64,000 nucleotides of DNA, taken from assembly GCA_031261345.1 (NCBI GenBank), contig JAISKC010000086.1:1-64000 (forward strand). Direction: 5' to 3'. Below, piece by piece: positions 19,458 to 37,646 of this stretch. Under the pieces are notes generated by a model. The model was given only the letters and a program-made list of their open reading frames with translations. It was not told where the DNA came from and searched no databases. Made by a program: the position numbers and the translations under genes. This stretch comes from Eubacteriales Family XIII. Incertae Sedis bacterium (GTDB lineage Bacteria > Bacillota > Clostridia > Peptostreptococcales > Anaerovoracaceae). Positions within the stretch are counted from its first letter, which is position 1. Each line of letters starts with the position of its first letter.

Positions 19458-19470
19458 TTCTCTCCCCCTT

Positions 19471-19571: not shown

Positions 19572-19901
19572 TTATTCCTGCGCTTGATTTGCGTACCATT
19601 TTATGAATTCTATGATGAACTGCCTTTTTCTTTTGTCGCTACGGTGAATTAGGTCTCGGATTTCGTCCAGAGAATCGTTGCGATATTCCTTATCTATCCC
19701 CATCAAAATATAGTCAGGCGTTACATCGAGTGCCGAGCAAAGCTTCATAAGCGTTTCAATGCTACACTTTGCCCCGCGCTCCACATTGCCCGTATAAGTC
19801 GTACTCAAATTCGCACGTTCGGCCAACTCCGCCTGGGTCAGATCCAACACGCGGCGACGCCTCGCTATCCTCTTTCCAATTTCATTATAATCAATACTCA
19901 T
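19572..19901 (-). CDS. XRE family regulator, divergent from the BREX operon
   Basis: A 109-residue protein with an N-terminal helix-turn-helix (LTQAELAERANLSTTYTGNVERG, about residues 20-45) and a short C-terminal helical region. The start at 19901 is preferred because GAGGGA lies 12 nt upstream; an in-frame ATG at 19922 would add seven residues. It is transcribed away from brxB. A 10-bp word, TAGTTGGTAT, overlaps its own start and recurs over the -35 of the BREX promoter, making it the likely BREX operon regulator (inference). Confidence 0.83.
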   Translation of the reverse strand: MSIDYNEIGKRIARRRRVLDLTQAELAERANLSTTYTGNVERGAKCSIETLMKLCSALDVTPDYILMGIDKEYRNDSLDEIRDLIHRSDKRKRQFIIEFIKWYANQAQE

Positions 19902-20017
19902 AGTTGGTATACACTCCCTCATATGAGTACTTTAGCAATGCATATTGCCCCTATACAGAATCCATATAGAGTAAAAAACACATTGTAGTTGGTATTATTT
20001 CGATAATAAAGTATAAT
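19901..20017 (+). promoter_or_regulatory. BREX promoter with repeated TAGTTGGTAT sites
   Basis: Candidate promoter for brxB: -35 TTGGTA (19989-19994), 17-bp spacer, -10 TATAAT (20012-20017). The word TAGTTGGTAT occurs at 19901-19910, at the start of the xre gene, and at 19986-19995, overlapping the -35. These two direct repeats are natural candidates for binding by the divergent XRE protein. Confidence 0.6.
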
Positions 20018-20098
20018 TTTATGTAATGTCATCATCTAGTCAGGCGTATTGAAGAAGCATCTTTGTGTGTTGAATGAGGGAGTTTAACTGAAGTAATT

Positions 20099-20704
20099 GT
20101 GGATACGGAAAAACGATTAAATCAAATGGAATCAATGATTGAGGATACCGCTTTTCGTCACAATCGTGGATTGAGCAACGAGGTTGGCTATTATATCTTT
20201 GACTATCCGCCGAAGGACGAACTCATCATTAGAGATTATATCAAACGATTGCAAGGCAAGGCAACCACCGAGGGAACACTCGGTTTCTCCCTTGAGGTCT
20301 TTGATCTTTATGATATGGTGCTTGATATTTTGGAAGAGAAGCAGTTTCTTGAGCAATGTTTTAAGTTTGAAGAAAAGCAAGGAATGGACAGAATTGTTCG
20401 GGCGGTAGGTAATATGCTAAAGCTCAGCGATAATACCGGATTGATTGTAGAGAAAATTAGAAGCAGACTTGCTGAACGTGAAGAAGATGCAACAGTCAAA
20501 TTTGAAACCGTCATCTTCATCACAGGTATTGGAAAAATATATCCGGTACTTCGCTCACATAAAGTCTTGAACAATCTTCATCAAGCGATAGATGACATCC
20601 CTGTAGTGATGTTCTATCCAGGGCGCTATGATGAGCAGAAATTGATGCTATTTGGAACCTTGCAGGATGATAACTATTATCGTGCATTTCGTCTCGTAGA
20701 TTGA
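20099..20704 (+). CDS. brxB: BREX protein BrxB (DUF1788)
   Basis: A 201-residue DUF1788 protein. The hallmark segment RGLSNEVGYYIFDYPPKDELIIRDYI (about residues 20-45) and the late FLTGIGKIYPVLRSHKVL-like region (here FITGIGKIYPVLRSH) are characteristic of BrxB. In BREX phage defence BrxB is a core accessory protein of unknown biochemistry. The start is a GTG at 20099 with only a distant GAGGG; an ATG at codon 10 is an alternative. It is the first gene of the operon. brxA (DUF1819), which normally precedes brxB, is not present. Confidence 0.93.
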   Translation: MDTEKRLNQMESMIEDTAFRHNRGLSNEVGYYIFDYPPKDELIIRDYIKRLQGKATTEGTLGFSLEVFDLYDMVLDILEEKQFLEQCFKFEEKQGMDRIVRAVGNMLKLSDNTGLIVEKIRSRLAEREEDATVKFETVIFITGIGKIYPVLRSHKVLNNLHQAIDDIPVVMFYPGRYDEQKLMLFGTLQDDNYYRAFRLVD

Positions 20705-20723: not shown

Positions 20724-23700
20724 ATGCAGATAAAGGATATGTTCAAAAAGTCCATCAGTAGGGACATCAAAGGCGTTATCAAAGTTGGACAAAGCGATGA
20801 CGAGAATATTTGCCAGGAGCTTGAAGAGTATGTAGTCACAAACGAACTGAACAAACACTTCCACGATTTCTTCGATGCATACAAAGCCGGATTGATTGGT
20901 GATACCGACAAAATGGGTGTCTGGATATCGGGCTTCTTTGGAAGCGGCAAATCTCATTTTCTCAAAATCCTTTCATACTTACTGGACAATAGAGAGGTCG
21001 GTGGCAAGCGTGCCGCAGACTATTTCACAGAGGAGAATAAAATCACTGATCCGATGACACTTGCCGACATCAAGAAGGTTGCACAGCATGCAGAGGATAC
21101 CAAAGTTATGCTATTCAATATCGACTCCAAAAGCGATGTGGCAGATAAAAACTCGAAAGATGCAATCGTGCTGGTCTTCCTGAAAGTTTTCAATGAAATG
21201 TTGGGCTATTGCGGCTCAATTCCTGCGTTGGCGGAACTTGAAAGATACTTAGAAGCACAGGGGCATTACGAATCATTCAAGCAGAGATTTAAGGAAAAAT
21301 CGGGTGCTGAATGGGTGGATCAGAGACAGGACTTCGACTTCATTAGAGATGACATCGAAGAAGCTCTCACAAATATGGGTATTATGAGCAGTGATGCCAT
21401 TTCGGCTTGGTTCGAAAAGGCAACGAGCACGTACAGTATCAGCATAGAAGAATTCGCATCGATGGTGAGCAGTTATATAAAGATTAAAGGCGCGAACCAT
21501 CATGTGATATTTCTTGTTGATGAGGTTGGGCAATATATCGGCGACAATTCAGATCTTATGTTGAACCTCCAGACCGTAACTGAGGATTTGGGCACGATGT
21601 GTCAGGGCAAGGCTTGGGTCATTGTGACGAGTCAGCAGGACATTGACCATATTGTGAAAGATATGCGCGCGAGGGCGTCGAATGATTTTTCGAAGATACA
21701 GGGCCGTTTTGATACAAAGATTTCTCTCACATCCGCAAATGTTGACGAAGTAATAAGAAAACGAATTCTCGAGAAAAATGAAACAGCGGATGCCGCGCTG
21801 AAAATGCTATACGAACAAAACGAGACCATTATCAAAAATTTGATTGTCTTCAATGACAAAGCTGAGAAAAAACTATATAAGAACGGTAGTGATTTCGCCG
21901 CCGTCTATCCTTTCGTACCTTATCAGTTCAATCTGCTCGCAAGCGTGCTAACATCCATAAGGACTCACGGCGCATCAGGCAAACATCTATCGGAAGGCGA
22001 GCGATCAATGCTCGCGCTATTCAAGGAATCCGCAATGAAAATTATGGATAAGAGCGAAGGGGAGATTGTGCCGTTTTACATTTTCTATGACGCCCTTCAT
22101 AAATTCCTTGACCACAGTCATGCCGGAGTAATTCTCAAGGCGATGGTGAACGATCACATCAACCCATCTCGTGAGGATGACTGTTTCTCGGTAAATGTAT
22201 TGAAGGCCCTATTCATGATCAAGTACGTTAATGAAATAGAGGCCAATGTAGAAAATTTGACCAGCCTAATGGTGGACTCCATCGATGCAGATAGAATTGT
22301 CCTCAAAAGAAAGGTTGAGGAATCTCTTAGTGTACTGCTTTCGGAAAAATTGATTCAGAAAAACGGAAACGTGTATGTCTTCCTGACTGATGAAGAGCAG
22401 GAAATCAATCGTGAGATTGATGGACAAAACATAGAGCTTTCTGCAGTGACTGCCGAGATAGCCAGTATGTTATTTGACGACAAGGGACTGATTGGAAACT
22501 CAAAGCATCGATATTCCAAGATGAACGGTAGATATAGCTTTCCCTATAGCAAATACGTCGACGAATTTGAGAGTAAATCCGGTCAGGGTAGCGAGATTGG
22601 TCTACGTATCATTACTCCTATTTCTGACAATCTCGATGATTCCACAATCCGTATGAAGTCGGGTCAAGGCAAAGAAGTTGTGGTGCTTTTGCCTGATGAT
22701 ATGGCTTTCGTAAGCGAGCTTCGGGATTCAATGCGAATCAAGAAATACATGCAAACAGCTTCCTCTGCAGCATTGTCAAAGTTTGAGCAAATCAAGGAAG
22801 CGAAGGCTGCAGACGGTCGCAAGAGAGCTGACAACGCGCACCTGTTTCTCAAAGAAGCACTTAAGGACGCCTCTATTTATGTAAATGGCGACAAAGCAAA
22901 TATTGGAGCGAAAGAACCGTCTGCAAGAATAGGGGAAGGGCTTGAGCTGTTGATAAGCACGGTATTTCACAAGCTCCCTTATATGGACACAGCGGTGAGT
23001 GCTGCAGATATTCGTGGACTGCTTGATGGCAATTTGAACAAAACGATTTCAATGGCTGAAGTTGCTGAGCAAAACGCCAATGCACTGAGCGATATGCTGA
23101 CTTATATCACTGTTCAGTCGGTAGCACATATGCATCCTTCGCTTAAATCATTGATGGATAGATTCAGAAAAGTGCCCTACGGTTTTGAGGAAGACGATGT
23201 CCGGTGGCTTATAGCAAAATTGTTTGCGGATGCTGAAGTCTCTTTATCATTAAATGGCGAGAACATATCAACGCGCTCAAATACCGAGGATGAAATCTAT
23301 AGATACTTGACGAAGAAAGAGTTTTCAGAGAAATTGCTTGTTACACGCAGAGAACGAGTGAATGAAGCTCAAAAGAAAATAGTGAGAAGTGTGATGCAGG
23401 AGCTGTTTCATTCGTCCGGAGCAAAGGACGATGACGATTCCATCATGGAGTATTTTGAAAAGATGGGTAGCAGGCGTTTGGACAGTCTGGAACGACTTTT
23501 AGAGAAATATGAAAATGGGTCAAAGCTATATCCATATCCGAGCAAAAGCATCGTTGAAGAGGGAATAGCACTATTTCGAGGCACCCTTGGTATCGAAAGT
23601 GTAAGTGCGTTTTATGAGCAGATTGCCAAGAATGAAAATGCCTTGCGAGACTTTGCTGAGGACTATGATGCAGTCAATGCGTTTTTCTACAGCAAGGACA

Positions 23701-24491
23701 ACACCCAAGTTCAGGGAGAGCAGAAAACATTCTTTGACCTCTCTGCAAAGAATATGGAGATTTGGGAAGAAAGCAAACCCTTTGTTGTCAACAGGGAAGT
23801 GGAGGACTTGGCGAATGCAATCAAGGAAATTCTTCTCAAAAAAGTTCCGTACTCGGATATTCCGAAATTGCCTGAGCTAAGAGAAAATTTCATGTACGCC
23901 TACAGCGGAGTTTTATCTTCCATGAAACCGCCGATCAAAGAGGCTATTGAGGCGGCGCGCACGCGAGTAATAAGTGAACTAGATGAATCTGATTCCAAGG
24001 ATGAATGTGAGGAGAAATACAATAAGCAGTTTGACGATTTAAGTGAGAAGTTGGATACCTGCAACAACGTAGCAACCCTGCAAATCATAAAGGTTGAAGC
24101 GGACACCCTAAAGACAAGGCTACTATCGGACATCGCAGACCTGCAAGCCAAGTCCCAACTGCCATTGCAAGCCGATACCGCAGACCCGTCATTGCGAGCG
24201 AAGCGATACCCCAAGAGGGCACTTAGCAATCCAGAATTAGGCAGCGAATCTCAATCAGAGGACAACTCGTCATTGCGGGCTCCGACCCGCAATCCACATA
24301 CCGACACCGATGAGACACCTAAAGTCGCTCCACCCGTATCTACGCAAAAGTACATAAGCATTAGAGAAACCGTAACAGAACAGACATGGCAAATCAAAAA
24401 CGAAGAAGAATTAGACGCATATCTTTCAAGCTTGCGGGAGCGAATCAAGAAAGAATTAGTTGACGGCAAGACTTTGAACATTGAGTTTTAG
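20724..24491 (+). CDS. brxC: BREX ATPase BrxC
   Basis: A 1255-residue P-loop ATPase of the BrxC/PglY family, a core of BREX complexes. Walker A GFFGSGKSH begins at residue 70 and Walker B VIFLVDEVGQY at about 261-271. Long helical regions follow. The sequence starts with the family-typical MQIKDMFKKSISRDIKGVIKVGQ. Near the C terminus (about residues 1155-1191) the protein carries PSLRAKRYPKRALSNPE and SSLRAPTRNPH, encoded by two palindromic elements (24185-24297). These are in frame but foreign to the family, lying in a linker before the conserved C-terminal segment YISIRETVTEQTWQIKNEEELDAYL. It is separated from pglX by 8 bp. Confidence 0.95.
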   Translation: MQIKDMFKKSISRDIKGVIKVGQSDDENICQELEEYVVTNELNKHFHDFFDAYKAGLIGDTDKMGVWISGFFGSGKSHFLKILSYLLDNREVGGKRAADYFTEENKITDPMTLADIKKVAQHAEDTKVMLFNIDSKSDVADKNSKDAIVLVFLKVFNEMLGYCGSIPALAELERYLEAQGHYESFKQRFKEKSGAEWVDQRQDFDFIRDDIEEALTNMGIMSSDAISAWFEKATSTYSISIEEFASMVSSYIKIKGANHHVIFLVDEVGQYIGDNSDLMLNLQTVTEDLGTMCQGKAWVIVTSQQDIDHIVKDMRARASNDFSKIQGRFDTKISLTSANVDEVIRKRILEKNETADAALKMLYEQNETIIKNLIVFNDKAEKKLYKNGSDFAAVYPFVPYQFNLLASVLTSIRTHGASGKHLSEGERSMLALFKESAMKIMDKSEGEIVPFYIFYDALHKFLDHSHAGVILKAMVNDHINPSREDDCFSVNVLKALFMIKYVNEIEANVENLTSLMVDSIDADRIVLKRKVEESLSVLLSEKLIQKNGNVYVFLTDEEQEINREIDGQNIELSAVTAEIASMLFDDKGLIGNSKHRYSKMNGRYSFPYSKYVDEFESKSGQGSEIGLRIITPISDNLDDSTIRMKSGQGKEVVVLLPDDMAFVSELRDSMRIKKYMQTASSAALSKFEQIKEAKAADGRKRADNAHLFLKEALKDASIYVNGDKANIGAKEPSARIGEGLELLISTVFHKLPYMDTAVSAADIRGLLDGNLNKTISMAEVAEQNANALSDMLTYITVQSVAHMHPSLKSLMDRFRKVPYGFEEDDVRWLIAKLFADAEVSLSLNGENISTRSNTEDEIYRYLTKKEFSEKLLVTRRERVNEAQKKIVRSVMQELFHSSGAKDDDDSIMEYFEKMGSRRLDSLERLLEKYENGSKLYPYPSKSIVEEGIALFRGTLGIESVSAFYEQIAKNENALRDFAEDYDAVNAFFYSKDNTQVQGEQKTFFDLSAKNMEIWEESKPFVVNREVEDLANAIKEILLKKVPYSDIPKLPELRENFMYAYSGVLSSMKPPIKEAIEAARTRVISELDESDSKDECEEKYNKQFDDLSEKLDTCNNVATLQIIKVEADTLKTRLLSDIADLQAKSQLPLQADTADPSLRAKRYPKRALSNPELGSESQSEDNSSLRAPTRNPHTDTDETPKVAPPVSTQKYISIRETVTEQTWQIKNEEELDAYLSSLRERIKKELVDGKTLNIEF
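24185..24297 (-). repeat. Two palindromic elements inside brxC
   Basis: The first (24185-24233, CGTCATTGCGAGCGAAGCGA onward, ending GCAATCCAGA) and the second (24267-24297, CGTCATTGCGGG-CTCCGAC-CCGCAATCC) match the reverse complement of the GGATTGC...GCAATGAC elements seen elsewhere. Both are translated as part of BrxC. Confidence 0.85.
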
Positions 24492-24499: not shown

Positions 24500-27085
24500 A
24501 TGGACAAGACAGCGATTAAAAATTTTGCGGTATGGGCAAGGACAAAGCTAATTTCTAACGTCGAATACAAGGCGGGATTGCTCGGCATCACAAAGGGTGG
24601 AATTGCGGATGCATTGCCACAGTCAACAGGCGACGCACAGTTTTTCAATATTGGAACAAAAGACCCCTACTGCATCACAGGCAGGCAAATTTCGCAACGC
24701 AACTCATTGGTTCGTTTGATTGAGGCGAAGGCGGAACAATCTGACTTTGCCACCGCGTATGATGCTCTGGTGGAGGAAGTATCTTATACATGGTTCAATC
24801 GCTTGATAGCAATCCGCTTTATGGAAGTAAACGACTATTTGCCGTCGCATATCAGAGTGCTTTCATCAGAAGCCGGAAAAGCGGAGCCGGATTTGGTGAG
24901 CACACCATTTGATGCCGAACTGGCGTTCACCGAAGCGGAGCGAGCTCAAGTCCTAAAACTACAAGATGAAAGCAAGTCGGATGAACTATTCAGACTTCTC
25001 TTCATCAAGCAGTGCAATGCGCTGAATGCAATCCTGCCCGAACTCTTCGAAAAGACGGACGACCACACAGAACTACTCTTCTCCGCGTCCTTCACCGACC
25101 CCAACGGTGTAGTAGCCCACTTGGTAAGCGACATTGCAGAAGAAGACTTCAAAGAAGCCGTAGAAATCATCGGATGGATGTATCAGTACTACAATACTGA
25201 GCCGAAGCAGGATGTGTTTGACGGATTGAAAAAGAATATAAAGATTTCAAAAGAGAAAATACCTGCAGCAACACAATTATTTACACCTGATTGGATTGTT
25301 CGCTACATGATAGAAAACTCCTTAGGACGCCTATGGATAGAACATCTACAATCTAGCGATACGCTAACTCCCGTCATTGCGGGCTCCGACCCGCAATCCA
25401 GTCCTACAGCTATTGCAAACAATTGGAAATACTACATACAAGAAGCTGAGCAGACCCCTGAAGTCAAAGCCAAGCTAAAAGAAATCAGAGCAACATACAA
25501 ATATCTGACGCCAGAAGACATAAAATTTATAGACCCTTGCATGGGTAGTGGACACATCTTAGTATACGCATTCGACGTCCTAATGCAGATATATGAAAGC
25601 GCAGGACACGCAAGCCGTGATGCAGCAAAACTGATTTTAGAAAACAATCTATACGGTCTGGACATAGACAAGAGAGCCTATCAACTATCTTATTTCGCAC
25701 TTATGATGAAGGCGCGTCAATACAATCGCCGTATCTTGAACGGAGAGACAACTCCGCAAGTCTATCACCCAACAGGGGACAAAGACTGTGAAGAGTTTGG
25801 TTCACTAATGAAAATTGACGAGCAGTGGGATGCAGAAAAAGAAAAGCCACAAAGATCCGATGTGCAAATTTCAATAGAAGATCTGAACTACGAACAAGAC
25901 CTGCGAGTCTGGAATTTCAAGCGTCTGCTCACGAAGAAGTACGATGTGGTCTGCACAAACCCACCATATTTGGGGAGCGGTGGGATGTCTGTAAAAATGA
26001 CTTCTTTTGTGGAAACAAATTATATTGATGGTAAAGCAGATTTATTTGCAGCTTTTATTTTACGCTGCTTTGAACTGAGCCGAGCAAATGGAATTATAGG
26101 CATGATGACATCATATACTTGGATGTTTTTGTCAGGCTACCAATCTATAAGGGAGACCATCCTATATTCGTATGCACTAACATCATTGATACAGCCTGAA
26201 TACCATTCATTTTTTGAAGAAGCCTATGTCCCAATTTGTACATTTACCGCAAGAAAAGCTATTACACACGAAAGTAGTATTAATATTCGATTAGAACAAT
26301 TTAAGGGAGCAAGCATTCAATCTGAAAAGGCCCTTGAAGCGATAGCTGATATTAACTGCAAATACCGATATGTCTTTAATCCGGATGTGCTTCATGCAGT
26401 GCCTGGTTCTCCGCTTGTTTACTGGGCAAACTCAACGGTATTTGAGCATTATAAAACTTGTCCATTAATTCAATCTGTATGTCCTCCGAAACCGGGGCTA
26501 AGCACTGGGGATAATGATAGATTTCTCCGCTTTTGGCAGGAGATATCATTTACAAAAATATCATTCAAGGGCCTTTCACAAAAAAAATGGTATCCAATAA
26601 ACAAGGGCGGTGAGTTTAGACGGTGGTATGGCAACCATCAATATATTGTCAATTGGGATAACGATGGCTTTGAAATTCGCAATTTCAAAGAAAAAGGTGG
26701 GAGATTGAAATCACGACCACAAAACTTACAGTGGAACTTTAAGTCGGCTATTAGTTGGTCACTAATAACTACAGGTGCGATTAGTCTGCGATTCTATCCT
26801 GCATATTTTATGCAGAATGCGGCGGGAATTTGTTGCTATCCAACAGATGAAAATTTTGCGTATATGCTTGCTTTTTTGAATACAAAGCCTGCCCAGCTGT
26901 ATGCAAGTATACTAAGTCCCACAATGAACACTAATGCTGGAGATATCGCTCGAATTCCTGTCGTCTATAGAAGTGAGAAATGTTCAGAAATAGAACGTAT
27001 AGTCGCAGATAATATTAATTTAGCATGTGTTGACTGGGATGTCTTTGAAACCTCATGGGATTTCAAGTCCCATCCATTATTGTAG
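24500..27085 (+). CDS. pglX: BREX adenine methyltransferase PglX, N-terminal part (split gene)
   Basis: An 861-residue N6-adenine methyltransferase of BREX type 1, which marks host DNA and contributes to phage recognition. Motif I DPCMGSGH is at residues 345-352 and motif IV NPPY at 487-490. The target-recognition-like region follows (GDNDRFLRFWQEISF, KWYPINKGGEFRRWYGNHQYIVNWDNDGFEI). The frame stops directly after DWDVFETSWDFKSHPLL. In full-length PglX (about 1200 aa) this segment is followed by an EEWK...FDEL-ANEEELNRIFIDIYGL block. Exactly that block is found 1.8 kb downstream as a separate ORF (28866-29837). A palindromic element adds PVIAGSDPQSSP at about residues 290-302. Ribosome binding site GGGGAG; 8 bp after brxC. 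Confidence 0.95.
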   Translation: MDKTAIKNFAVWARTKLISNVEYKAGLLGITKGGIADALPQSTGDAQFFNIGTKDPYCITGRQISQRNSLVRLIEAKAEQSDFATAYDALVEEVSYTWFNRLIAIRFMEVNDYLPSHIRVLSSEAGKAEPDLVSTPFDAELAFTEAERAQVLKLQDESKSDELFRLLFIKQCNALNAILPELFEKTDDHTELLFSASFTDPNGVVAHLVSDIAEEDFKEAVEIIGWMYQYYNTEPKQDVFDGLKKNIKISKEKIPAATQLFTPDWIVRYMIENSLGRLWIEHLQSSDTLTPVIAGSDPQSSPTAIANNWKYYIQEAEQTPEVKAKLKEIRATYKYLTPEDIKFIDPCMGSGHILVYAFDVLMQIYESAGHASRDAAKLILENNLYGLDIDKRAYQLSYFALMMKARQYNRRILNGETTPQVYHPTGDKDCEEFGSLMKIDEQWDAEKEKPQRSDVQISIEDLNYEQDLRVWNFKRLLTKKYDVVCTNPPYLGSGGMSVKMTSFVETNYIDGKADLFAAFILRCFELSRANGIIGMMTSYTWMFLSGYQSIRETILYSYALTSLIQPEYHSFFEEAYVPICTFTARKAITHESSINIRLEQFKGASIQSEKALEAIADINCKYRYVFNPDVLHAVPGSPLVYWANSTVFEHYKTCPLIQSVCPPKPGLSTGDNDRFLRFWQEISFTKISFKGLSQKKWYPINKGGEFRRWYGNHQYIVNWDNDGFEIRNFKEKGGRLKSRPQNLQWNFKSAISWSLITTGAISLRFYPAYFMQNAAGICCYPTDENFAYMLAFLNTKPAQLYASILSPTMNTNAGDIARIPVVYRSEKCSEIERIVADNINLACVDWDVFETSWDFKSHPLL
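25371..25403 (-). repeat. Palindromic element inside pglX
   Basis: CGTCATTGCGGG-CTCCGAC-CCGCAATCCAG, the same orientation and almost the same sequence as the second brxC element, translated in frame as VIAGSDPQS between the helical N-terminal domain and methyltransferase motif I. Confidence 0.9.
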
Positions 27086-27095
27086 GTGCGGTCAT

Positions 27096-27695
27096 ATGCA
27101 AAGTGTATTTATCAGTCATAATAATAGCGACAAACCGATTGCGAGAGAAATAGCACTATTCCTTGTGGCAGAAGGTATAAACGTGTGGTTCGATGAATGG
27201 GCAGTCGAACAGGGCGATTCCATTACAGAAAAAGTATCGGAAGGACTAAAAAACTGCACTCACTTATTGCTTCTATGGTCTGAAAACGCTAAAGAATCTA
27301 ATTGGGTCAAACGAGAATTGAACGCATCCATTCCTCGCATAGTTGAGGATCAAAATATTAAACTTATTCCCGTTCTTCTTGATGAAATGGAATTGCCTTC
27401 ACTATTAGCAGATATTCGGTATATAAGATACTCGGAGGGCACGGAACAGGACCGAAATGACATTATCGAAGCTGTCACTGGAAATTCGTCGAGTAGAACA
27501 TTTATTGAGGCTGTAGTCAAGAAATACCACGAAGTCATATTTGATGATAATTCATCAGAGCCGTTTCCGCTCAAAGCATGCCCTAAATGTGGTAGTAGCA
27601 GATTAAACTTCGCATCTCACTTAGATGGCCAACGCGATGAAGTGTATTACCATGCCAGTTGCAAAGATTGCGGCTGGAGCGATTGGACGCAGTAA
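27096..27695 (+). CDS. TIR domain protein with C-terminal zinc ribbon, inserted between pglX halves
   Basis: A 199-residue protein. The TIR domain (about residues 1-125) begins SVFISHNNSDKPIAREIALFL and has INVWFDEWAVEQGDSI (BB-loop region) and NWVKRELNASI, which contains the W-x3-E with the candidate catalytic glutamate of NADase TIRs. The C-terminal 30 residues form a zinc ribbon (CPKCGSS...CKDCGWSDW). TIR proteins in defence islands often deplete NAD to abort infection. The ATG at 27096 is 10 bp after the pglX stop; a longer in-frame extension upstream would overlap pglX and is not supported by homology. Confidence 0.88.
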   Translation: MQSVFISHNNSDKPIAREIALFLVAEGINVWFDEWAVEQGDSITEKVSEGLKNCTHLLLLWSENAKESNWVKRELNASIPRIVEDQNIKLIPVLLDEMELPSLLADIRYIRYSEGTEQDRNDIIEAVTGNSSSRTFIEAVVKKYHEVIFDDNSSEPFPLKACPKCGSSRLNFASHLDGQRDEVYYHASCKDCGWSDWTQ

Positions 27696-27754: not shown

Positions 27755-28684
27755 ATGATTTTTAAACCAAGAATTTTTATTAGTTCAACATTTACTGAAA
27801 ATGCAAAGACTCGAGATGATTTAAGAGCCTTCTTCACAGGGATAGGTGCAGAGCCATTGTTGTATGAACGAAATTTGACGCCATCAACGAGTCCGTCGGT
27901 GTATCGGCAGGATGTCGCGCACGCAGATTTCGTTATTGTTATCATCAGAGATGAGTACGGTACGCCAACTGATACAGGGATGTCTGGCTTGCATGAGGAG
28001 ATGAAGATTGCTCTCGACAAAGAAATACCGCTTCATGTTTATATTAAAAACGATTCAAAAATTTTCAAGTCTCCCAAGGATTGCTTTGAGCAGGATGAAT
28101 TTGGTAAGTTAATTAGAGCAAATCGAATTTCCTATTATCAATATAATAATGATAACGATTTGTTTTTGCGCATTAAGGAAACAACATTTGAAATTTTCCA
28201 TGAAATCTTTATGCGACAACTATCGTCTCAAGCGCTTGAAAAGAAATTGGCAAAAATTGAGTATGACTACAAGCAAGCCATAGGCGTCATCAAGATAATA
28301 GAAGCCTTCTATGATTATTTTAAAATGGTTGATCCTATAAGCACAACTTTATTCGCTGAAATGGAATGTTTGTTTGATTGGGTTGATGACAATAAATTCA
28401 TCTTCATTAATATTGAGCTTGAAAATCTCATAGGTGAACTTTCATCAATATTAAGAAAATTTATCAGTCATCATGTAAATGATTATGTAGCGGTTTCAAA
28501 AGCTCAAAGAACAATTGAAATCCCATTACTGGGGAAACTATCGTTCTCAACCTGTGAAAAGTGTCCGACTGCGGACGCCAATCAACATAAATATGAGAAG
28601 TGGTTAGAGAATTTCACACAAGTATTTGAAAAATTCAAAACTTGTACTAGTGAGTTGAGGTATGAAGCAGATGTGTTTTTATAA
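27755..28684 (+). CDS. DUF4062 domain protein, inserted between pglX halves
   Basis: A 309-residue protein. The N-terminal DUF4062 domain (about residues 3-90) carries the family start RIFISSTFTENAKTRDDLRAFF, then ADFVIVIIRDEYGTPTDTGMSGLHEEMKIAL, a TIR-like Rossmann fold with a conserved Glu. The remainder (about 130-309) is helical without recognised motifs. DUF4062 occurs in many antiphage effectors as a sensor or TIR-like module. It is followed at once by a strong hairpin terminator, suggesting that the TIR and DUF4062 genes form a self-contained unit inserted in pglX. Confidence 0.83.
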   Translation: MIFKPRIFISSTFTENAKTRDDLRAFFTGIGAEPLLYERNLTPSTSPSVYRQDVAHADFVIVIIRDEYGTPTDTGMSGLHEEMKIALDKEIPLHVYIKNDSKIFKSPKDCFEQDEFGKLIRANRISYYQYNNDNDLFLRIKETTFEIFHEIFMRQLSSQALEKKLAKIEYDYKQAIGVIKIIEAFYDYFKMVDPISTTLFAEMECLFDWVDDNKFIFINIELENLIGELSSILRKFISHHVNDYVAVSKAQRTIEIPLLGKLSFSTCEKCPTADANQHKYEKWLENFTQVFEKFKTCTSELRYEADVFL

Positions 28685-28821: not shown

Positions 28822-28850
28822 ATGGATTGCCGCGCTACGCTCGCAATGAT
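28822..28850 (+). repeat. Palindromic element upstream of the pglX C-terminal ORF
   Basis: GGATTGCCGCGC-TACGCTCGCAATGA type element. It ends about 16 nt before the start of the second pglX ORF and marks the right edge of the inserted segment. Confidence 0.85.
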
Positions 28851-28865
28851 AAGGAAAGGATATTT

Positions 28866-29837
28866 ATGGGTAGATTGATTTCGGATAAGTATGAAGAGTG
28901 GAAGGCGGAGGCTAATGCTCGCTTTGACGAGCTAATGGCAAACGAAGAAGAACTCAACCGCATCTTCATTGATATCTACGGACTTGCTGATGAGCTGACT
29001 CCTGATGTTGCAGCAAAAGATGTTACTGTACACCGAGTCTACGACAGCAAGGATGATGTCCCCGATGAGATGAAAGGTAGCAACTATGTGCTCACAAAAC
29101 GAGATATGATTGTCAGCCTTATTTCCTATGCGGTCGGTTGCATGTTTGGTAGATATTCTCTTGACGTGGAAGGACTTGCATACGCCGGTGGCGACTGGGA
29201 TCAAAGCAAGTATCAATCTTATATCCCAGATGCTGACAATGTTCTGCCAATCACTGATACCGAGTATCTGTCGGATGATATAGTTACACGTTTTGTAGAT
29301 TTCATTCGTATTGCTTATGGGGAGGAGACAGTTGAAGAAAATATTAGGTTCATCGCGGATTCCCTTGAAGACAAAGGCGTGACAGCACGCGAGGTCATAC
29401 GCAATTACTTCCTGAAGGAATTTTATAAGGATCACGTGAAGACATACAAGAAAAGACCTATCTATTGGCTCTTTGATAGTGGTAAGGCGAACGGTTTTAA
29501 GGCACTTATCTATTTGCACCGCTATACAGAGGACACGGTTGGCCTCTTGCGTGTGGAATATTTGCACAAGTTGCAACGAATCTATGAGGCTGAAATTGCA
29601 AGGATGCAGGATACTGCCGAACATGCAGAAAGTGCGAGAGAGATATCCGTTGCACAGAAGAGGCTTGAAAAATTGCAGAAGCAGGTGAAAGAGACGACCG
29701 AATATGATGAAAAGATCGGGCATCTTGCAAATGCTCGAATATCGCTCAACCTTGACGATGGCGTGAAGGTCAATTACGAAAAGATACAGACAGATAGGGA
29801 TGGCAAAAAATTGGCTGTTCTTTCACCAATCAAATAA
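28866..29837 (+). CDS. pglX: BREX PglX, C-terminal part (split gene)
   Basis: A 323-residue ORF with its own ribosome binding site (AAAGGA, 6-7 nt before the ATG). It encodes the C-terminal region of type 1 PglX: DKYEEWKAEANARFDELMANEEELNRIFIDIYGLADELTP, ISYAVGCMFGRYSLDVEGL, FYKDHVKTYKKRPIYWLFDSGKANGFKALIYLHRY, and a coiled-coil tail. The N-terminal methyltransferase part ends at 27085. Between them lie the TIR and DUF4062 genes, a terminator and a palindromic element. An upstream in-frame extension (from 28827) translates only the palindromic element and is not PglX-like. The two polypeptides could reassemble in trans (inference), or pglX may be inactive. Confidence 0.93.
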   Translation: MGRLISDKYEEWKAEANARFDELMANEEELNRIFIDIYGLADELTPDVAAKDVTVHRVYDSKDDVPDEMKGSNYVLTKRDMIVSLISYAVGCMFGRYSLDVEGLAYAGGDWDQSKYQSYIPDADNVLPITDTEYLSDDIVTRFVDFIRIAYGEETVEENIRFIADSLEDKGVTAREVIRNYFLKEFYKDHVKTYKKRPIYWLFDSGKANGFKALIYLHRYTEDTVGLLRVEYLHKLQRIYEAEIARMQDTAEHAESAREISVAQKRLEKLQKQVKETTEYDEKIGHLANARISLNLDDGVKVNYEKIQTDRDGKKLAVLSPIK

Positions 29838-29856: not shown

Positions 29857-32361
29857 ATGAATCTGACGCATATTGAAGAAAAATTGAAAGAAGCCTTTTC
29901 TGGGAGCACGCGCAGCCTTATCTTCTGGTATGACGATGAGGGGCAGTTTGCTGAGGATATTGATGCGCTTTCAATTCCAAGCGTGAAGATTCATCTGCTT
30001 GAGGAACGCAATCAGTTCTATACAAAATATTTACTTGAACGTCGGGATGCAAAGTCCAACTATCTCATATATGCACCATTTCCCAAGCCCGATGTGCGGG
30101 ACAATCATCTGGAAGATACGCTTCTTTATTCAAAGCGATTTTATGCTGATAAGGTCTCACTGCTTGCTGCGGAAAAAGGGATTTCTGAGAAACTAAAACC
30201 TGTATTGCAAAAGTACAGCAAATTCTTTGAATCAAAAGAGCGCAATCAACGGTTTGACAATCTTGAGATTGAGAATGATACGCCCGAAAATATTGAAGTG
30301 GCGTTGATGAGTGTATTGACGAGGTCTACTACAGCAACATTTGACGAGGTGGCAAGAGCAGTATTGGGGGCTGATTTGGACGATGAAAATAAATATCTGT
30401 TGGAGTTTGAAAAATATGGTCTGACAGAAGCGTTTTGGAGACATTGTGACGATCAGTTTGGATATGCTGATACAAAGTCATCGATCAGTTCCTTTGCCGC
30501 AATGTTGCTACTTACTTGTGCAAGCAAGCAGCTTGGCGATGATACGCCTGAAGCATGGAAGGACCTTGTTTCCGCAAAATATGGCAATGTGATTGCCTTG
30601 ATAAGCAATCTTATGAACAGTGTTTTATATCGCGAAATGTACGATGCGCTTGCAAGTCGTGTTTCAAGTCAATACCAAGTTCCTGCTACACTTTCAGAAC
30701 TGCCGACGGAAGCCTTGCTCGGATGCTATATTTTCGGATCGGTTGACGAGATTTTGATTGGCTGGATTAATGATCACTTGCTTGCCGAGGACACAAATGC
30801 CGAGCTTGCGGGACACGATATCTCTGAAATTTGTGCAATACGTAGCAAGTTGCATTTTGGAGAGACTTTTTCAGCAGAGTATGATCTTCTCGCCTCAGCA
30901 ATCGAGGTGATTTCGGCAACAGGGTATCAATATTCAGACGAAATAGTCGAAATAGCAAACCAATATACTGAAACATATTTTAGGATTGACAGAAACTATC
31001 GCTCCTTCTACTTGGCGCTTGATCGTCTCGCCGATGCAGATGACTATGAAGAGCTTCGCCTGCTTGTTGAAAGAATATATTCCAATGAATATCTTGAAAA
31101 AATTATTCCTGCTTGGAATCGTGCCATTAGTGTGGATGGGGCTGATAGAAAAATAGGGCGTACAGAAGATTTTTTCTTCAACCATATAGCGACTACAAAG
31201 GAGAAGACCGCAGTAATTATCTCGGATGCTCTGCGCTATGAGGTAGGTAGACAACTCTTTGAAAAACTTGCGGATTATCCAAATTGCGCAGCAATGATTC
31301 ATGCCGAAGTTGGGATGCTACCATCATTCACCCCGACAGGAGTCGCAGCATTGTTGCCGCACGACAGAATTGACCTACAGGATGATGGAAGCGTTTTGCT
31401 CGATGGTGCTCAGGCGGATACGCTTGAAAAGAGAGAACAGACTTTGCAAAAGAAAATGCCTCAAAGCAGATGTGTTCGCTTTGATGACATCACAAGTAGC
31501 AAAAATGAGCAACGAGAATTATTCAATGGAATGGATGTCGTCTACATATTTCACAATCAAATTGACGCCAGAGGGGACAATGCTGCAACGGAAAATGAAG
31601 TGTTCACCGCTTGCGCAGAAGCCGTTGATGAGATATTCAGTATGATCAAAAGGCTTGCAAGCAATGTGTCCATCTCAAAATTCATCATCACTGCAGACCA
31701 CGGCTTTTTATACAAGAGGGACAAGCTTCCGGAGAGCGACAAAATAGACACGAAGAGATTTCATCCTATTATTATGAAAAGGCGCTTTATTCTGTCTGAA
31801 TCCGGAGCAAATGTCGAAGGAGTGATGGAGTTCTCTTCAAGGCAATCATCTTCTATTGGACAAGACCGTTTTCTTTCGGTGCCACTTAGCTCGCATATAT
31901 TCAAGGTTTCCGGAGGTGGGCAGAATTATGTTCATGGCGGGTCTTCGCCGCAGGAGATGCTGTTGCCCGTCATTGAGGTAAGGGTAGAAAAAGGAAAGGT
32001 TGAGACTATTCCGGTCAAAATTGCTTTGGTTAGCGTAGTGAACAAAATCACAAATCTCGTCATTTCATTTGACTTCATGCAATCGGATGCTGTGGGAGAC
32101 AGTATTGTACCTGCGGAATACAAAATATCTTTCTTAGATGGATCTGGAACAAGTATATCAAACGAGTATACCTATGTTGCGGACAGCAAGGCTAAGAACC
32201 CGCAGGACAGGATGTTCTCGCTCAGATTCACTTTCAAAAACAGAAAGTATGCCGCTGGTGAGCGATGTGAACTCGTTATCAAGGAAACAAAGAGTGGAAT
32301 GGCGATATTAAGACATGAGGTGATTATGGATCTCGCATTTTCTGACGACTTTGGTTTTTAG
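29857..32361 (+). CDS. pglZ: BREX alkaline-phosphatase-like protein PglZ (type A)
   Basis: An 834-residue PglZ, the defining BREX protein. An N-terminal regulatory region (starting LTHIEEKLKEAFSG, then LIFWYDDEGQFAEDI) precedes the alkaline phosphatase superfamily domain: TAVIISDALRYEVGRQL at about 452-468 (metal Asp), PSFTPTGVAALLPH at about 489-502 (region of the nucleophile), IDARGDNAATENEVF, and ITADHGFLYKRD at about 611-622. BREX PglZ binds BrxB/BrxX complexes; its hydrolase role remains uncertain. It overlaps no neighbour and is followed after 10 nt by brxL. Confidence 0.95.
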   Translation: MNLTHIEEKLKEAFSGSTRSLIFWYDDEGQFAEDIDALSIPSVKIHLLEERNQFYTKYLLERRDAKSNYLIYAPFPKPDVRDNHLEDTLLYSKRFYADKVSLLAAEKGISEKLKPVLQKYSKFFESKERNQRFDNLEIENDTPENIEVALMSVLTRSTTATFDEVARAVLGADLDDENKYLLEFEKYGLTEAFWRHCDDQFGYADTKSSISSFAAMLLLTCASKQLGDDTPEAWKDLVSAKYGNVIALISNLMNSVLYREMYDALASRVSSQYQVPATLSELPTEALLGCYIFGSVDEILIGWINDHLLAEDTNAELAGHDISEICAIRSKLHFGETFSAEYDLLASAIEVISATGYQYSDEIVEIANQYTETYFRIDRNYRSFYLALDRLADADDYEELRLLVERIYSNEYLEKIIPAWNRAISVDGADRKIGRTEDFFFNHIATTKEKTAVIISDALRYEVGRQLFEKLADYPNCAAMIHAEVGMLPSFTPTGVAALLPHDRIDLQDDGSVLLDGAQADTLEKREQTLQKKMPQSRCVRFDDITSSKNEQRELFNGMDVVYIFHNQIDARGDNAATENEVFTACAEAVDEIFSMIKRLASNVSISKFIITADHGFLYKRDKLPESDKIDTKRFHPIIMKRRFILSESGANVEGVMEFSSRQSSSIGQDRFLSVPLSSHIFKVSGGGQNYVHGGSSPQEMLLPVIEVRVEKGKVETIPVKIALVSVVNKITNLVISFDFMQSDAVGDSIVPAEYKISFLDGSGTSISNEYTYVADSKAKNPQDRMFSLRFTFKNRKYAAGERCELVIKETKSGMAILRHEVIMDLAFSDDFGF

Positions 32362-32371: not shown

Positions 32372-35300
32372 ATGGATACATTAGATAAAAAATTGAATGA
32401 AGTATTTCAAGGAAAGACTGTTCGCAAGGACTTGACGGCTTTGCTCAAACGAACGGCGAATGCGCCTGCATACGTCATCGAGTTTCTGCTCGGTATGTAT
32501 GCGAACACTACGGATGATGAGGCTCTTCAGGAGGGGTTGAACAATATAAGGCGAATTCTGTCCGAAAATTACGTGCGTCCTGATGAGGGGGAAAAGATAA
32601 AGTCAAGAATTAAAGAAAACGGTGAGTATACCGTCATTGATAAAATATCTGCGAAGTTTGATGAGCGTAGAGATGTATATACCGGCACGTTTTCAAATCT
32701 ATCTACAGAGCCTTTCCTTATTCCATATGAATATATCAAGGGCTATGAGAAGATGCTTACGAGTGGTATTTGGTGCATTTCACGTATGGCATACGATCAA
32801 GGAGCGGATTCATCCTTCCGCGTCGTCAGCCTCAAACCCGTGCAGATGTCTGTCCTCGACCTCACGGATTTCACGGAGCGCAGAAAGGAATTTTCATTTA
32901 AGGAATGGAGAAATTTGCTCCTGAGGTCTGTAGGATATGAGCCTACGGCACTTACCGATATTGAGTGTCTACACTTGATTGAGCGAATGGTGCCTCTCGC
33001 AGAGCGCAATTACAATTTGTGCGAGCTTGGTCCAAAGGGCACAGGCAAGTCCCATATCTACAAGGAGATTTCTCCGTATACGATTTTGACAAGCAGTGGC
33101 AGTATCACGACTGCAAATCTCTTCGTCAATATGAAGAGCGGTCAGCTTGGTCTTGCAGGTTATTGGGATTGCGTCGCGCTCGATGAAGTGTCGGGAATGC
33201 ATCTGAAAAACAAAGAGACGGTGCAGGTCTTCAAAGACTATATGGCGTCCGGATCATACTCCGGCAAAAATAATATGGTAAATGCGGACGCCTCCCTTGT
33301 AATGATAGGGAATGCGGATTATATTTCGGAAGATTCCGGTTCCGATGCGCATCTGCTTGCGGCGTTCCCTGCATCGCTGAGGGATGATAGTGCTTTCTTT
33401 GATCGAATACACTTTTATGTGCCAGGGTGGGACGTGCCAAAGCTACGTCCGGAACTTCTGACCGAGCATTATGGACTTAATACTGATTATCTCTCTGAAT
33501 ATTGTAGAGAGCTTAGAAAGAAAGACTACGGGCATCTCTTCGATGAGAAATATGACTTGAATTCTCACTTCAATCAGCGTGATGTTATCGCTGTTCGAAA
33601 GACCTTTTCCGGACTTGCGAAATTGTTGTTCCCCGATATGGTGATGTCTGATGAGGAGATGAGGATGCTTCTGGAATATTCTATCACTGGCAGGAGGCGA
33701 GTGAAGGAACAGCTTAAGGCGATGGACGGTGCAGAATTTGCTGAAACAGACCTTGGGTATATTGATAATGAGGGTAATGAAACCATCGTAAATCTACCGG
33801 AAGTTATCACCTCATCATTTGATTTTAATGATGACGATGAGCTGGAGGGTTTGCGCGATGTAGGCGACAGCGATATCGATTTTGAAGAGGAAGAACATCA
33901 TCGATTGAAATCTGAGACCACACTACGCATAGAAAATAAGATGCGCGAAATATTTAGGAAAAAAGCAGGTGAAGAGGTTGTCGTTTTGAAGAGCCCCGAA
34001 CGTACAACATTCTTTAGAAATATGGGGCTACCATCCTATATGCGCGACTGGATTACCATGAAGTTTTCAGATGAATACGGGAAGTTCGACAAAAGTGGTG
34101 CATTTAAATATGTGCAACGATTCTTGCCTGACAGAAAAGGGTTTGAGAAAATCAAATACCAAATGAACAGCGGAAAAACCGTTCGCATTTTGGCACGTAT
34201 ACGAATCACGGTCAACATAAAGGAGGGGACGACGGAGTTTGAACTTCCCGATTTTGGCGGAAAGGTAAATGGCGCGAGCGGACTGATAAAGAGTACCGTG
34301 ATTGATAAGTGGCAGGATATTCTCCTAAAGGAAAGTGAAAACTGGGGTGTAATCGATATTCAGCGTCAAGAAGATTCTGATTCCAAAAAACCAAAAGGTA
34401 TTGTATGGCTCGTCGGGTATCAAAGGTTCAGTGTATACAATATCGATCTTGCTGAGTATCGGAAACAACGGCGTCAATTTTCCATAAGTGAGTGGATTGA
34501 TGTTCTCCTTACGGCAGTAGATTACAACCCAGATGGCTACAAGGACGAGAGGGCAAAGCTGTATTTTCTAAGGAGGTTACTACCATTTGTGCAGAGAAAT
34601 ATAAATTTGATTGAGCTTGCGCCAAAGGGCACCGGTAAGACCTATATTTATCAAACTATTTCAAAGCGTGGGTGGTTGCAAGCAGCGGGGACCGTTTCCA
34701 GAGCATCGCTTTTTTATAACAACAGGACGAGGGAGCCTGGACTTTTGATGCACTTTGATTTTGTCGTATTCGATGAAATTCAGACTATGATTTTTAACGA
34801 CCCGACAGAAATTCAATCTGCTTTGAAGCACTATATGGAGTATGGTGAGGTGAAGGGCTTTGATACGCAAATGAATTCTGATGCCGGCATAGTTCTTCTC
34901 GGTAATATTGAGGCTGCGAAGTTTAGCACCGATGTGAATATGATGATGGAGATAAATCCGATTTTCAGTGAATCAGCAACGCTTGACCGCTTTCACGGAT
35001 TCATACCTGGCTGGGAGATACCTCGTATGACGCAGGGGCTTATCGCCGATGGTTGGGCACTAAGTACAGAGTTTTTTGCCGAAGTTGCCCACGCACTTAG
35101 AGGCGAGCTGAAATACTCAGCTATTGTGGATAGCTGCCTTGAAGTCCCGCCAAAAGCGGATCAGCGCGATTTGACTGCAATAAAAAGGTTGACGGAGGCT
35201 TTCCTAAAATTACTGTTCCCACATGTCGAATCGAAAAAGGATATTTCTCCCGATGAGTTTATCACTTACTGCCTTGAGCCAGCCAAGGAAATGCGCAGAA

Positions 35301-35950
35301 CAATCAAGAAGCAACTGTGTATCATTGACCCTGATGAATTTGATACTTCCGGAAAACGTGATATTCCTGACATTCAGTATCGGTATGGCGACGCTGAGGA
35401 AGACGAAAATTTGTCTATTCAATTTGAGGCGGCTGCCTCATCTGATAGCATGTTGGATGAGACCGATGAAACCGATGGAACTGGAAAGAAAACTCCACCG
35501 ACTGACGTAAGCAATACTCGCGCGAAATTTTCTCGATATGGTTATAAGGATGCTTTTAGGGAAGATGTGGACTTCTTTATGGAATTGCTTGATAGATATC
35601 AGGAAAAACAGAAAATCGCACGCGAAATCATCGAGAAGCGTTTTCCGCCGCCCCAGATGACATACGACAAATTCATACAGGAAATGGACAGTTTCGAATC
35701 AGCTTTTATGCTACAAATCAACAAGGCGAATGACATCATAGGCATCGCTTCTGAACGCACGGAGAGAATCGACGATGAGCTCACAAATGCACGCGAATTG
35801 GCAAAATCAATAGTCGAGAAAACGGAGGGGTTGGCAATAGAGCTGTCCGTCAATTTGAATGAGGTTGGGGAAGGCTCTTCAACGGCTGAAATTGAGGCAC
35901 TTATGGAGGATATGCAGAATTTAATAGAGTCGATAAAAGAGTATAAGTAG
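32372..35950 (+). CDS. brxL: Tandem BrxL-type double AAA+ protein lacking the Lon-like protease domain
   Basis: A 1192-residue protein where standard BrxL is about 680. Module 1 (about 1-480) is a canonical BrxL start (LDKKLNEVFQGKTVRKDL, ILSENYVRPDEGEKIKSRIKENG) with Walker A GPKGTGKS 220-227, Walker B ALDE at 269-272, sensor MIGNAD, and GRRRVKEQLKAMDG. At the point where BrxL enters its Lon-like domain the sequence becomes an acidic linker, then a diverged second module (about 520-1010) with its own Walker A APKGTGKT 750-757, FDE at 800-802, LLGNIE and FDRIH-like LDRFHGFIPGWEIP. The last about 130 residues form a coiled coil (RYGYKDAFREDVDFFMELL, FIQEMDSFESAF). No Lon Ser-Lys dyad region was recognised. 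The ATG at 32372 follows AGGAGA; an upstream TTG would overlap pglZ. Confidence 0.9.
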   Translation: MDTLDKKLNEVFQGKTVRKDLTALLKRTANAPAYVIEFLLGMYANTTDDEALQEGLNNIRRILSENYVRPDEGEKIKSRIKENGEYTVIDKISAKFDERRDVYTGTFSNLSTEPFLIPYEYIKGYEKMLTSGIWCISRMAYDQGADSSFRVVSLKPVQMSVLDLTDFTERRKEFSFKEWRNLLLRSVGYEPTALTDIECLHLIERMVPLAERNYNLCELGPKGTGKSHIYKEISPYTILTSSGSITTANLFVNMKSGQLGLAGYWDCVALDEVSGMHLKNKETVQVFKDYMASGSYSGKNNMVNADASLVMIGNADYISEDSGSDAHLLAAFPASLRDDSAFFDRIHFYVPGWDVPKLRPELLTEHYGLNTDYLSEYCRELRKKDYGHLFDEKYDLNSHFNQRDVIAVRKTFSGLAKLLFPDMVMSDEEMRMLLEYSITGRRRVKEQLKAMDGAEFAETDLGYIDNEGNETIVNLPEVITSSFDFNDDDELEGLRDVGDSDIDFEEEEHHRLKSETTLRIENKMREIFRKKAGEEVVVLKSPERTTFFRNMGLPSYMRDWITMKFSDEYGKFDKSGAFKYVQRFLPDRKGFEKIKYQMNSGKTVRILARIRITVNIKEGTTEFELPDFGGKVNGASGLIKSTVIDKWQDILLKESENWGVIDIQRQEDSDSKKPKGIVWLVGYQRFSVYNIDLAEYRKQRRQFSISEWIDVLLTAVDYNPDGYKDERAKLYFLRRLLPFVQRNINLIELAPKGTGKTYIYQTISKRGWLQAAGTVSRASLFYNNRTREPGLLMHFDFVVFDEIQTMIFNDPTEIQSALKHYMEYGEVKGFDTQMNSDAGIVLLGNIEAAKFSTDVNMMMEINPIFSESATLDRFHGFIPGWEIPRMTQGLIADGWALSTEFFAEVAHALRGELKYSAIVDSCLEVPPKADQRDLTAIKRLTEAFLKLLFPHVESKKDISPDEFITYCLEPAKEMRRTIKKQLCIIDPDEFDTSGKRDIPDIQYRYGDAEEDENLSIQFEAAASSDSMLDETDETDGTGKKTPPTDVSNTRAKFSRYGYKDAFREDVDFFMELLDRYQEKQKIAREIIEKRFPPPQMTYDKFIQEMDSFESAFMLQINKANDIIGIASERTERIDDELTNARELAKSIVEKTEGLAIELSVNLNEVGEGSSTAEIEALMEDMQNLIESIKEYK

Positions 35951-35984: not shown

Positions 35985-37133
35985 ATGGCAGAATTTACTT
36001 TGGATACGGCAAGTTTGGCAGGTATACAGGCTGAGTTGGAAGAATCGATCGAGGAAATTGAAGAAGAATCAGCGAATCCAGAGATTCGCAAGCAGGCAGA
36101 GGTGAATGCCATTGCGATATTTGGCGAGGATTTTGAGTCGCTCAATTCGCGTCAGGAGATTTTGAAGCCGCTGGATGAATTCGGTATTGTGTCTATGCAG
36201 AGATCGGCAGCCAGGAACAAATTGCTCAGCACTCGCATTGTAGATTTGTCTAAGGGTGGGGACGATGCCGGTGATGTCGGGAACAATCTTGCTCAGTTGC
36301 GTTTGCAAATAAAGGATTTGGATCCAAGTAAGTTGGATTTCGCAAAGAAGGGGCTTCTGGGCAAAATCTTCAATCCAATGCGTAAGTATTTTCAGAAATA
36401 CCAAAAGTCCGATGCGGCAATAGCTGATATCGTGAAATCACTTGACAGCGGCAGCAAGACTCTTAAGAATGACAACACTACTCTCATTACCGAGGAGAAA
36501 ACTTTGAGCGAACTCACGAAAAAGCTATTGGCTGATGTCGAAATGGGCAGGGCAATGGATGCAGCTTTGGAGGCGCAGATCCTTAAGGCTGAGTATGAGG
36601 GAGCGGATTCAGAAAAAATCAAATTTGTCCAAGAGGAGGTTTTGTTCCCGCTTCGCCAACGCATTATGGATATGCAGCAAATGATTGTGGTTAATCAGCA
36701 GGGTATTTTTTCCATGAATGTGATTCGCAAGAACAACAAGGAGCTCATCAGGGGCGTAGAGCGAGCGAAGAATGTTACGGTGACAGCACTTAGAACGGGT
36801 GTCATCGTTGCTAGCGCACTCTACAATCAGAAGGTGCTCATAGAAAAGATTCAGACGCTCAATGAAACGACGGAAAACATTATCGAATCTACGTCTCGTA
36901 TGTTGAAGGAGCAAGGGGCTGAAATCCACCGTCAAAGTATGGAGTCAACCATTTCCGTTGATGCTCTGAAGAAGTCGTTTGCTGATGCACTCGTTGCGAT
37001 TGAAGACATAAGCACATTCAGGCAGAACGCATTGCCGCAAATGCAGCAGACAATAGAGCAATTTCGTGAGATGGCAGACGAAGGAGCCGTGGTAGTTTCA
37101 CGCCTAGAAAAGGAAGGCGAGAATATCAGCTGA
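35985..37133 (+). CDS. TelA-family (toxic anion resistance) protein at the end of the BREX operon
   Basis: A 382-residue, almost entirely helical TelA-like protein. The core shows LDPSKLDFAKKGLLGKIFNPMRKYFQKYQKSDAAIADIVKSL, then LTKKLLADVEMGRAMD, VEEVLFPLRQRIMDMQQMIVVNQQGIFSMNVIRKNNKELI and ERAKNVTVTALRTGVIVASALYNQKVL. TelA (PF05816) proteins are linked to tellurite and antibiotic tolerance and often pair with XpaC-like partners. The gene has a GAGGGAGG ribosome binding site, starts 34 nt after brxL, and no promoter is evident between them. It is therefore likely part of the BREX transcript and may work with the coiled-coil tail of the fused BrxL (inference). Confidence 0.87.
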   Translation: MAEFTLDTASLAGIQAELEESIEEIEEESANPEIRKQAEVNAIAIFGEDFESLNSRQEILKPLDEFGIVSMQRSAARNKLLSTRIVDLSKGGDDAGDVGNNLAQLRLQIKDLDPSKLDFAKKGLLGKIFNPMRKYFQKYQKSDAAIADIVKSLDSGSKTLKNDNTTLITEEKTLSELTKKLLADVEMGRAMDAALEAQILKAEYEGADSEKIKFVQEEVLFPLRQRIMDMQQMIVVNQQGIFSMNVIRKNNKELIRGVERAKNVTVTALRTGVIVASALYNQKVLIEKIQTLNETTENIIESTSRMLKEQGAEIHRQSMESTISVDALKKSFADALVAIEDISTFRQNALPQMQQTIEQFREMADEGAVVVSRLEKEGENIS

Positions 37134-37205: not shown

Positions 37206-37244
37206 TATGATATTGCTAAAGCAATGCAGAAAGGTAAGATTAAA

Positions 37245-37646
37245 ATGATTTATTCAATTGATGAGGTAAAAGAGAGAATAAAGCCGATTGCGGAGAGATA
37301 TAACCTTCCAATAGTCTATCTTTTTGGATCATATGCAAGAGGCGAGGAGAAGGATGGAAGCGATCTTGATTTTTTGATTAGAAGGACCGGATCGGATATT
37401 TCCTCCGCTCTCCAAATTGGAGGTCTTTACGCTGACCTTGATGAGACTTTTGATACAAGCATAGATTTAGTTACAGAGGAGACCTTTTCTCAGCCCGATA
37501 CGATACGAAGACATTCTGACTTTATTTACAATATTGAAAGGGATAGGGTGATTGTATATGAGGGATTGGTTTGCTCACGGTTATCAAGTGATGGATATAA
37601 AAACAATCTGGGAGACTGCATCGGCAGATGTTCCGATATTGCATAA
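37245..37646 (+). CDS. Minimal nucleotidyltransferase (MNT), C terminus altered
   Basis: A pol-beta-type nucleotidyltransferase with LFGSYARGEEKDGSDLDFLI (GS-x10-D-x-D, about residues 28-47) and IDLVTEE as third acidic site. The normal family C terminus is reached at RRHSDFIYNIERDRVIVYEG. The remaining about 27 residues (LVCSRLSSDGYKNNLGD onward) read a HEPN remnant out of frame. The ATG at 37245 is preferred over the ORF start at 37224. Confidence 0.83.
   Translation: MIYSIDEVKERIKPIAERYNLPIVYLFGSYARGEEKDGSDLDFLIRRTGSDISSALQIGGLYADLDETFDTSIDLVTEETFSQPDTIRRHSDFIYNIERDRVIVYEGLVCSRLSSDGYKNNLGDCIGRCSDIA

Follow-up and report, generated by a model that had tools for sequence, protein, structure and literature searches.

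In the solved structure of BrxL, the N-terminal and AAA+ domains make the ring and contact DNA, and the Lon-like domains link two rings tail to tail (PMC10164562). Restriction was abolished only by loss of BrxL ATPase activity, and mutants of the tail-to-tail interface remained able to restrict phage (PMC10164562). The genes of Type-1 BREX, a phage-defense system, are brxA, brxB, brxC, pglX, pglZ and brxL. The window analyzed here, a stretch of 64,000 nucleotides, contained five of these six, arranged as an operon in which brxB, brxC, a pglX split into two parts and a Type-1A pglZ were followed by a brxL gene encoding two BrxL units in tandem (Table 1). The frame of this last gene began with an ATG at 32372 and remained open, with no frameshift, up to a stop codon ending at 35950; a ribosome-binding site (AGGAG) preceded it, directly 3' of the pglZ stop.

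Table 1. Features of the BREX operon and of the brxL fusion gene (positions are those of the window; residues are those of P0001).
Feature	Position	Strand	Remarks
brxB	20099..20704	+	
brxC (Type-1)	20724..24491	+	
pglX, N-terminal part	24500..27085	+	methyltransferase
TIR-domain gene	27027..27695	+	between the pglX parts
DUF4062 gene	27755..28684	+	between the pglX parts
pglX, C-terminal part	28827..29837	+	
pglZ (BREX-1 type A)	29857..32361	+	
brxL1-brxL4 fusion gene (P0001)	32372..35950	+	single uninterrupted frame, 1192 aa
Unit 1, N-terminal domain	32399..32794	+	BrxL_N, residues 10-141; Type-1 lineage; Pfam, tree
Unit 1, AAA+ ATPase	32816..33751	+	residues 149-460; Type-1 lineage; Pfam
Unit 1, Walker A	33029..33052	+	GPKGTGKS, residues 220-227
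Acidic linker	33803..33922	+	residues 478-517 (40 residues; 15 D/E, 3 K/R); at the expected start of the Lon-like domain
Unit 2, N-terminal domain	33923..34408	+	residues 518-679; Type-4 lineage; Pfam, tree, structural alignment
Unit 2, AAA+ ATPase	34409..35347	+	Type-4 lineage; sequence match, tree, structural alignment
Unit 2, Walker A	34619..34642	+	APKGTGKT, residues 750-757
Helical tail	35537..35947	+	residues 1056-1192 (~140 aa); three predicted long helices, not Lon-like
telA	35985..37133	+	PF05816, 382 aa; 34 bp 3' of the fusion gene

Both BrxL domains were matched twice in the fusion protein by Pfam, BrxL_ATPase (PF13337) with 747.7 bits and BrxL_N (PF20442) with 203 bits, which puts the tandem BrxL assignment far beyond chance as judged from sequence profiles. 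TIGR02688 also gave two matches, and the solved BrxL (8EMC/8EMH) was matched across its residues 9-477. The two BrxL AAA+ modules in tandem described by the initial annotation were thus confirmed, together with the details it gave: the two Walker A motifs, 530 residues apart, the BrxL-like segments KEWRNLLLRS and SEWIDVLLTAVDY, and the DE-box, GN-sensor and PGW motifs after each Walker A. In units 1 and 2, respectively, the DE box was at residues 271-272 and 801-802, the sensor-1 Asn at 314 and 845, and DRxH...PGW at 344-353 and 872-881. Both units kept Walker A and B, the sensor-1 Asn, the Arg of DRxH and the Arg of QRD.

The origin of the tandem arrangement differed from the internal duplication that had been proposed. 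The two units were only 32% identical in the ATPase region, and in a 74-protein tree unit 1 fell within the Lon-bearing (Type-1) clade with a support of 100, and unit 2 was nested deep in the Type-4 clade (support of 100; 99 with the BrxL of locus L051). Because the units belonged to different BREX types and were so dissimilar in their ATPases, duplication was rejected and P0001 is, on its sequence, a fusion of two families across BREX types, Type-1 BrxL with Type-4 BrxL. We are close to certain of this two-type origin, of the domain make-up and of the intact ATPase motifs.

Unit 2 had the composition that defines Type-4 BrxL, namely an N-terminal domain and AAA+ module placed in the Type-4 clade and no C-terminal domain of its own, and it stood outside a Type-4 BREX locus (PAPS reductase, Type-4 BrxC, PglZ), the host operon being Type-1. 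The search for unfused homologs suggested by the initial annotation was successful: among the 80 top-ranking loci out of 573 matched in genomes, six BrxL proteins were 54-64% identical to unit 2, the nearest Type-4 protein at 64%. The PglZ encoded upstream of four of the six (L051-L054) was tested and was Type-4, and cysteine desulfurases were found 3' of several of them. Identity was 39-45% with short Lon-less BrxL, ~45% with other Type-4 BrxL, and ~30% with Type-1 BrxL. A very divergent short BrxL (L041:3838-5256, minus strand), ~40% identical to Type-4 BrxL, formed a long basal branch of the Type-4 group in the tree. The AlphaFold2 model of unit 2 with the tail aligned to residues 4-474 of the solved BrxL (Z 41.5 over 463 residues, rmsd 3.7), and the next-best structural matches were MCM proteins with Z ~17. 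This ruled out an unrelated ATPase and agreed with the assignment of the second module to BrxL in the initial annotation.

Unit 2 also kept 72 of the 76 positions invariant among other Type-4 BrxL and was joined to unit 1 by a flexible acidic linker, as would be expected if the two units formed separate rings with separate partners, like beads on a string, unit 1 partnered by the Type-1 BREX complex, unit 2 serving as an added, broader-acting module. No Type-4 partner gene was present among the annotated genes of the operon, however, and no other BrxL was found in the genome, pointing to the absence of a second system that unit 2 would serve; we regard such an arrangement as distinctly unlikely.

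The C-terminal Lon-like domain was absent from P0001, as the initial annotation had claimed. TIGR02653 (675 positions) matched two stretches of the protein, and its match to unit 1 stopped at position 481, leaving the Lon part unmatched. Type-1 similarity of unit 1 extended to about residue 477, so that unit 1 does end at the point where the Lon-like domain of canonical BrxL starts. A probe made from the Lon-like domain of a related Type-1 BrxL found no match in the fusion protein (best E 0.55), neither this probe nor Pfam detected a Lon domain, and the Lon-like domain of the solved BrxL (498-679) lay outside the alignment with the model of unit 2 and the tail. A hidden or degenerate Lon-like domain was rejected on the same absence of sequence match and on the tail, which was predicted to be all-helical without strands. 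Of the features that define a Type-1 BrxL, the fusion protein had the N-terminal domain followed by AAA+ and lacked the C-terminal Lon-like or HKD nuclease domain. Canonical BrxL is itself devoid of the Lon Ser-Lys dyad (PMC10164562, PMC12839542); the dyad therefore cannot discriminate, and the Lon-like fold, which is missing here, is the right test.

Unit 1 shared 58% identity with its closest relatives, two BrxL from its own family, and ~51% with the 680-aa Lon-bearing BrxL that is the common Type-1 form in the class; in structural alignment, its identity to the solved BrxL chain was 49-50%. The units were folded separately, as a joint full-protein alignment with both types had placed Type-1 rows on unit 2; the model of unit 1 had low confidence in the ATPase core (225-277), yet it matched BrxL. 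Of the 89 positions that did not vary among the other Type-1 BrxL compared, unit 1 kept 74, and most of its 15 departures were unique to it among these relatives, including R298G in a loop that reads FARG in relatives. The only departure in a catalytic motif was the conservative R222K of the P-loop, where Type-4 BrxL also has Lys. This pattern would fit either a specialized subunit or a partial relaxation of constraint. A specialized subunit would be expected if the two units alternated in a single six-membered ring of three chains, like MCM2-7, with the fusion fixing the order of the subunits. The 40-residue linker is long enough to span to a neighboring subunit, and the Arg of DRxH, presumed by analogy with MCM to be an arginine finger acting on the active site of the neighbor, was intact in both units. 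Nevertheless, the units are 32% identical and come from systems that each form their own ring, so that a mixed interface would be new, and we consider the alternating ring unlikely.

The rest of the operon showed both losses and signs of maintenance. A search of the assembly, which is 94.6% complete, did not find brxA; the same search was positive in five of five relatives tested. The place where brxA would be expected (18500-20100) was occupied by minus-strand ORFs of the XRE helix-turn-helix type and a macro-domain gene. The missing brxA, the split pglX and the departures of unit 1 at several positions invariant in others would favor decay, or a fusion by accident at a damaged BREX locus, in which unit 1, or P0001 as a whole, no longer functions. 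Against such decay, the gene was free of stops and frameshifts, all catalytic motifs were kept, and ribosome-binding sites preceded both brxL and telA. Moreover, pglX was split at the same residue (...FETSWDFKSHPL) in another genome (G1137, locus L147), with other genes between the parts, which argues for a maintained arrangement; pglX was intact in G1059 and G022. The split of PglX thus seems to recur, with cargo genes that can be exchanged, and decay of the locus appears to us quite improbable. Short dispersed repeats of 27-40 bp also recurred in the window (8294-8328, 9416-9457, 24268-24308, 25370-25405, 28823-28849, and 40517-40545), some of them in-frame within brxC and pglX, and one where the C-terminal part of pglX starts.

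Beyond unit 2, the protein continued through a second acidic, low-confidence linker (~1006-1055) into the helical tail, whose helices were predicted with modest confidence. Neither this extra tail nor the adjoining telA had been mentioned in the initial annotation. The telA product matched PF05816 with 232 bits over profile positions 18-325 of 332, its gene had a strong ribosome-binding site, and it was the only TelA found in the genome. A small nucleotidyltransferase (MNT-like) gene followed at 37224-37646. In most telA loci read for comparison, XpaC genes preceded telA, and an XpaC-like nature of the tail was suspected from telA and from the related locus L148 described below. No Pfam family matched the tail, including XpaC (PF10112), and hhalign gave a probability of 5% against XpaC. 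Used as a query against 391 genomes, the tail gave short, weak matches only.

Among the 115 BrxL-bearing genomes checked, telA adjoined brxL in two, the fusion genome and G1059, which belong to the same family, and both of these BrxL lacked the Lon-like domain. In G1059 (L148:2274-5869, minus strand; also L155), an unfused counterpart, an 822-aa Type-1 BrxL that is Lon-less and ends in an XpaC-like segment, was directly followed by telA, then by rhomboid and DNA/RNA endonuclease genes. The XpaC match of this C-terminus was weak in Pfam (E 5.5e-4) and clearer in profile comparison (E 6e-6, probability 85%). The Type-1 BREX genes of G1059 were 45-59% identical to those of the fusion operon. The BrxL core of L148, at 44% identity to unit 1, belonged to another Type-1 sublineage and was not its closest BrxL; the BrxL of G948 and G1137, which keep the Lon-like domain, were closer, and the operon is therefore mosaic. 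The association with telA may have more than one origin, or may have spread by recombination. Another BrxL, from G1062 (L149:3858-6194, minus strand), had an N-terminal extension of ~100 aa and kept the Lon-like domain, and was separated from pglZ by a gene of 383 aa.

The tandem arrangement was seen in one genome only among those searched. A second tandem BrxL was found neither in five overlapping draws (order, class, phylum, family, relatives; 1,482 genomes in total), nor in the plasmids, phages or viral contigs searched, nor in the best 80 of 573 loci matched in a species-wide genome scan, a sampling that may miss rare relatives; a first scan of genome contigs with unit 2 and the tail gave no match. 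We found no publication on a tandem BrxL or on a link between BrxL and TelA, and the BrxL-telA link is absent from the main text of a recent survey (PMC12839542). A fusion seen once in a draft genome of 91 contigs might be an assembly artifact joining two unrelated contigs. Yet the join was in frame and at domain borders, composition was shared on both sides, the linker was in neither parent, and the join was followed by the tail and telA, neither of which accompanied the Type-4 BrxL genes examined, making an artifact highly improbable. The GC ratio of all segments of the fusion was 0.42-0.46, compared to ~0.53 in ftsH and carB, and this uniformly low value indicates that the segments moved as one island.

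Our preferred reading of P0001, a covalent heteromeric two-tier BrxL, has in our judgment about an even chance of being right as a whole, mechanism included. In it, a Type-1 BrxL core that has lost its Lon-like domain is connected by the acidic linker of 40 residues with a complete Type-4 BrxL, followed by the tail. Like BrxL, the fusion protein would assemble on double-stranded DNA, where six chains would stack as two AAA+ tiers, one made of six copies of unit 1 and the other of six copies of unit 2. The second tier, covalently attached, would replace the tail-to-tail Lon-like contact and supply the double ring. Both tiers would hydrolyze ATP and would encircle or travel along unmodified phage DNA, blocking its replication, and the helical tail, positioned like the XpaC-like domain of the related system, would be a docking arm for TelA. 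We infer the stacking, the DNA loading, the use of ATP by both tiers and the contact with TelA; that fused modules could give a fixed heteromeric ring, as the initial annotation had suggested, is likewise reasonable to infer. It seems somewhat unlikely that the protein would amount to an MCM2-7-like heteromeric ring machine, in which the ATPases of two BREX types are joined, the second tier replaces the Lon-like domain and the tail is coupled to TelA.

Compared to described systems, the fusion combines known parts in a new and rare way. Unit 1 resembles Type-1 BrxL such as that of Acinetobacter (PDB 8EMC/8EMH) in its N-terminal and AAA+ domains, at ~50% identity, and in the placement of its gene after pglZ, but where Type-1 BrxL has a Lon-like C-terminal domain the fusion has a second BrxL and a helical tail, and then telA. 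Unit 2 matches the short BrxL of Type-4 BREX over its full length at up to 64% and is likewise Lon-less; Type-4 BrxL normally has a gene of its own, placed after a Type-4 pglZ and often followed by a cysteine desulfurase, whereas unit 2 is fused within a Type-1 operon, connecting two BREX types regarded as separate. Like BrxL with an HKD nuclease C-terminus (PMC12839542), the fusion is a Type-1 BrxL in which the Lon-like domain has been replaced, but it carries a second AAA+ module and a helical tail instead of a nuclease. The fusion also shows the BrxL C-terminus to be a slot able to hold a whole AAA+ protein, and not just a Lon-like or nuclease domain. The BrxL of G1059, from the same host family, is also Lon-less and followed by telA, but has one AAA+ unit and a recognizable XpaC match in its tail, compared to two units and no such match here; the link with telA in two related loci provides a lead. 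The fusion also offers a natural test of whether two BrxL tiers are needed and whether they do different work. Finally, the MCM2-7 helicase, with an AAA+ fold of the same group, likewise forms rings of unlike subunits on DNA, but its subunits are separate polypeptides and its structural similarity is lower (Z ~17, against 41 for BrxL).
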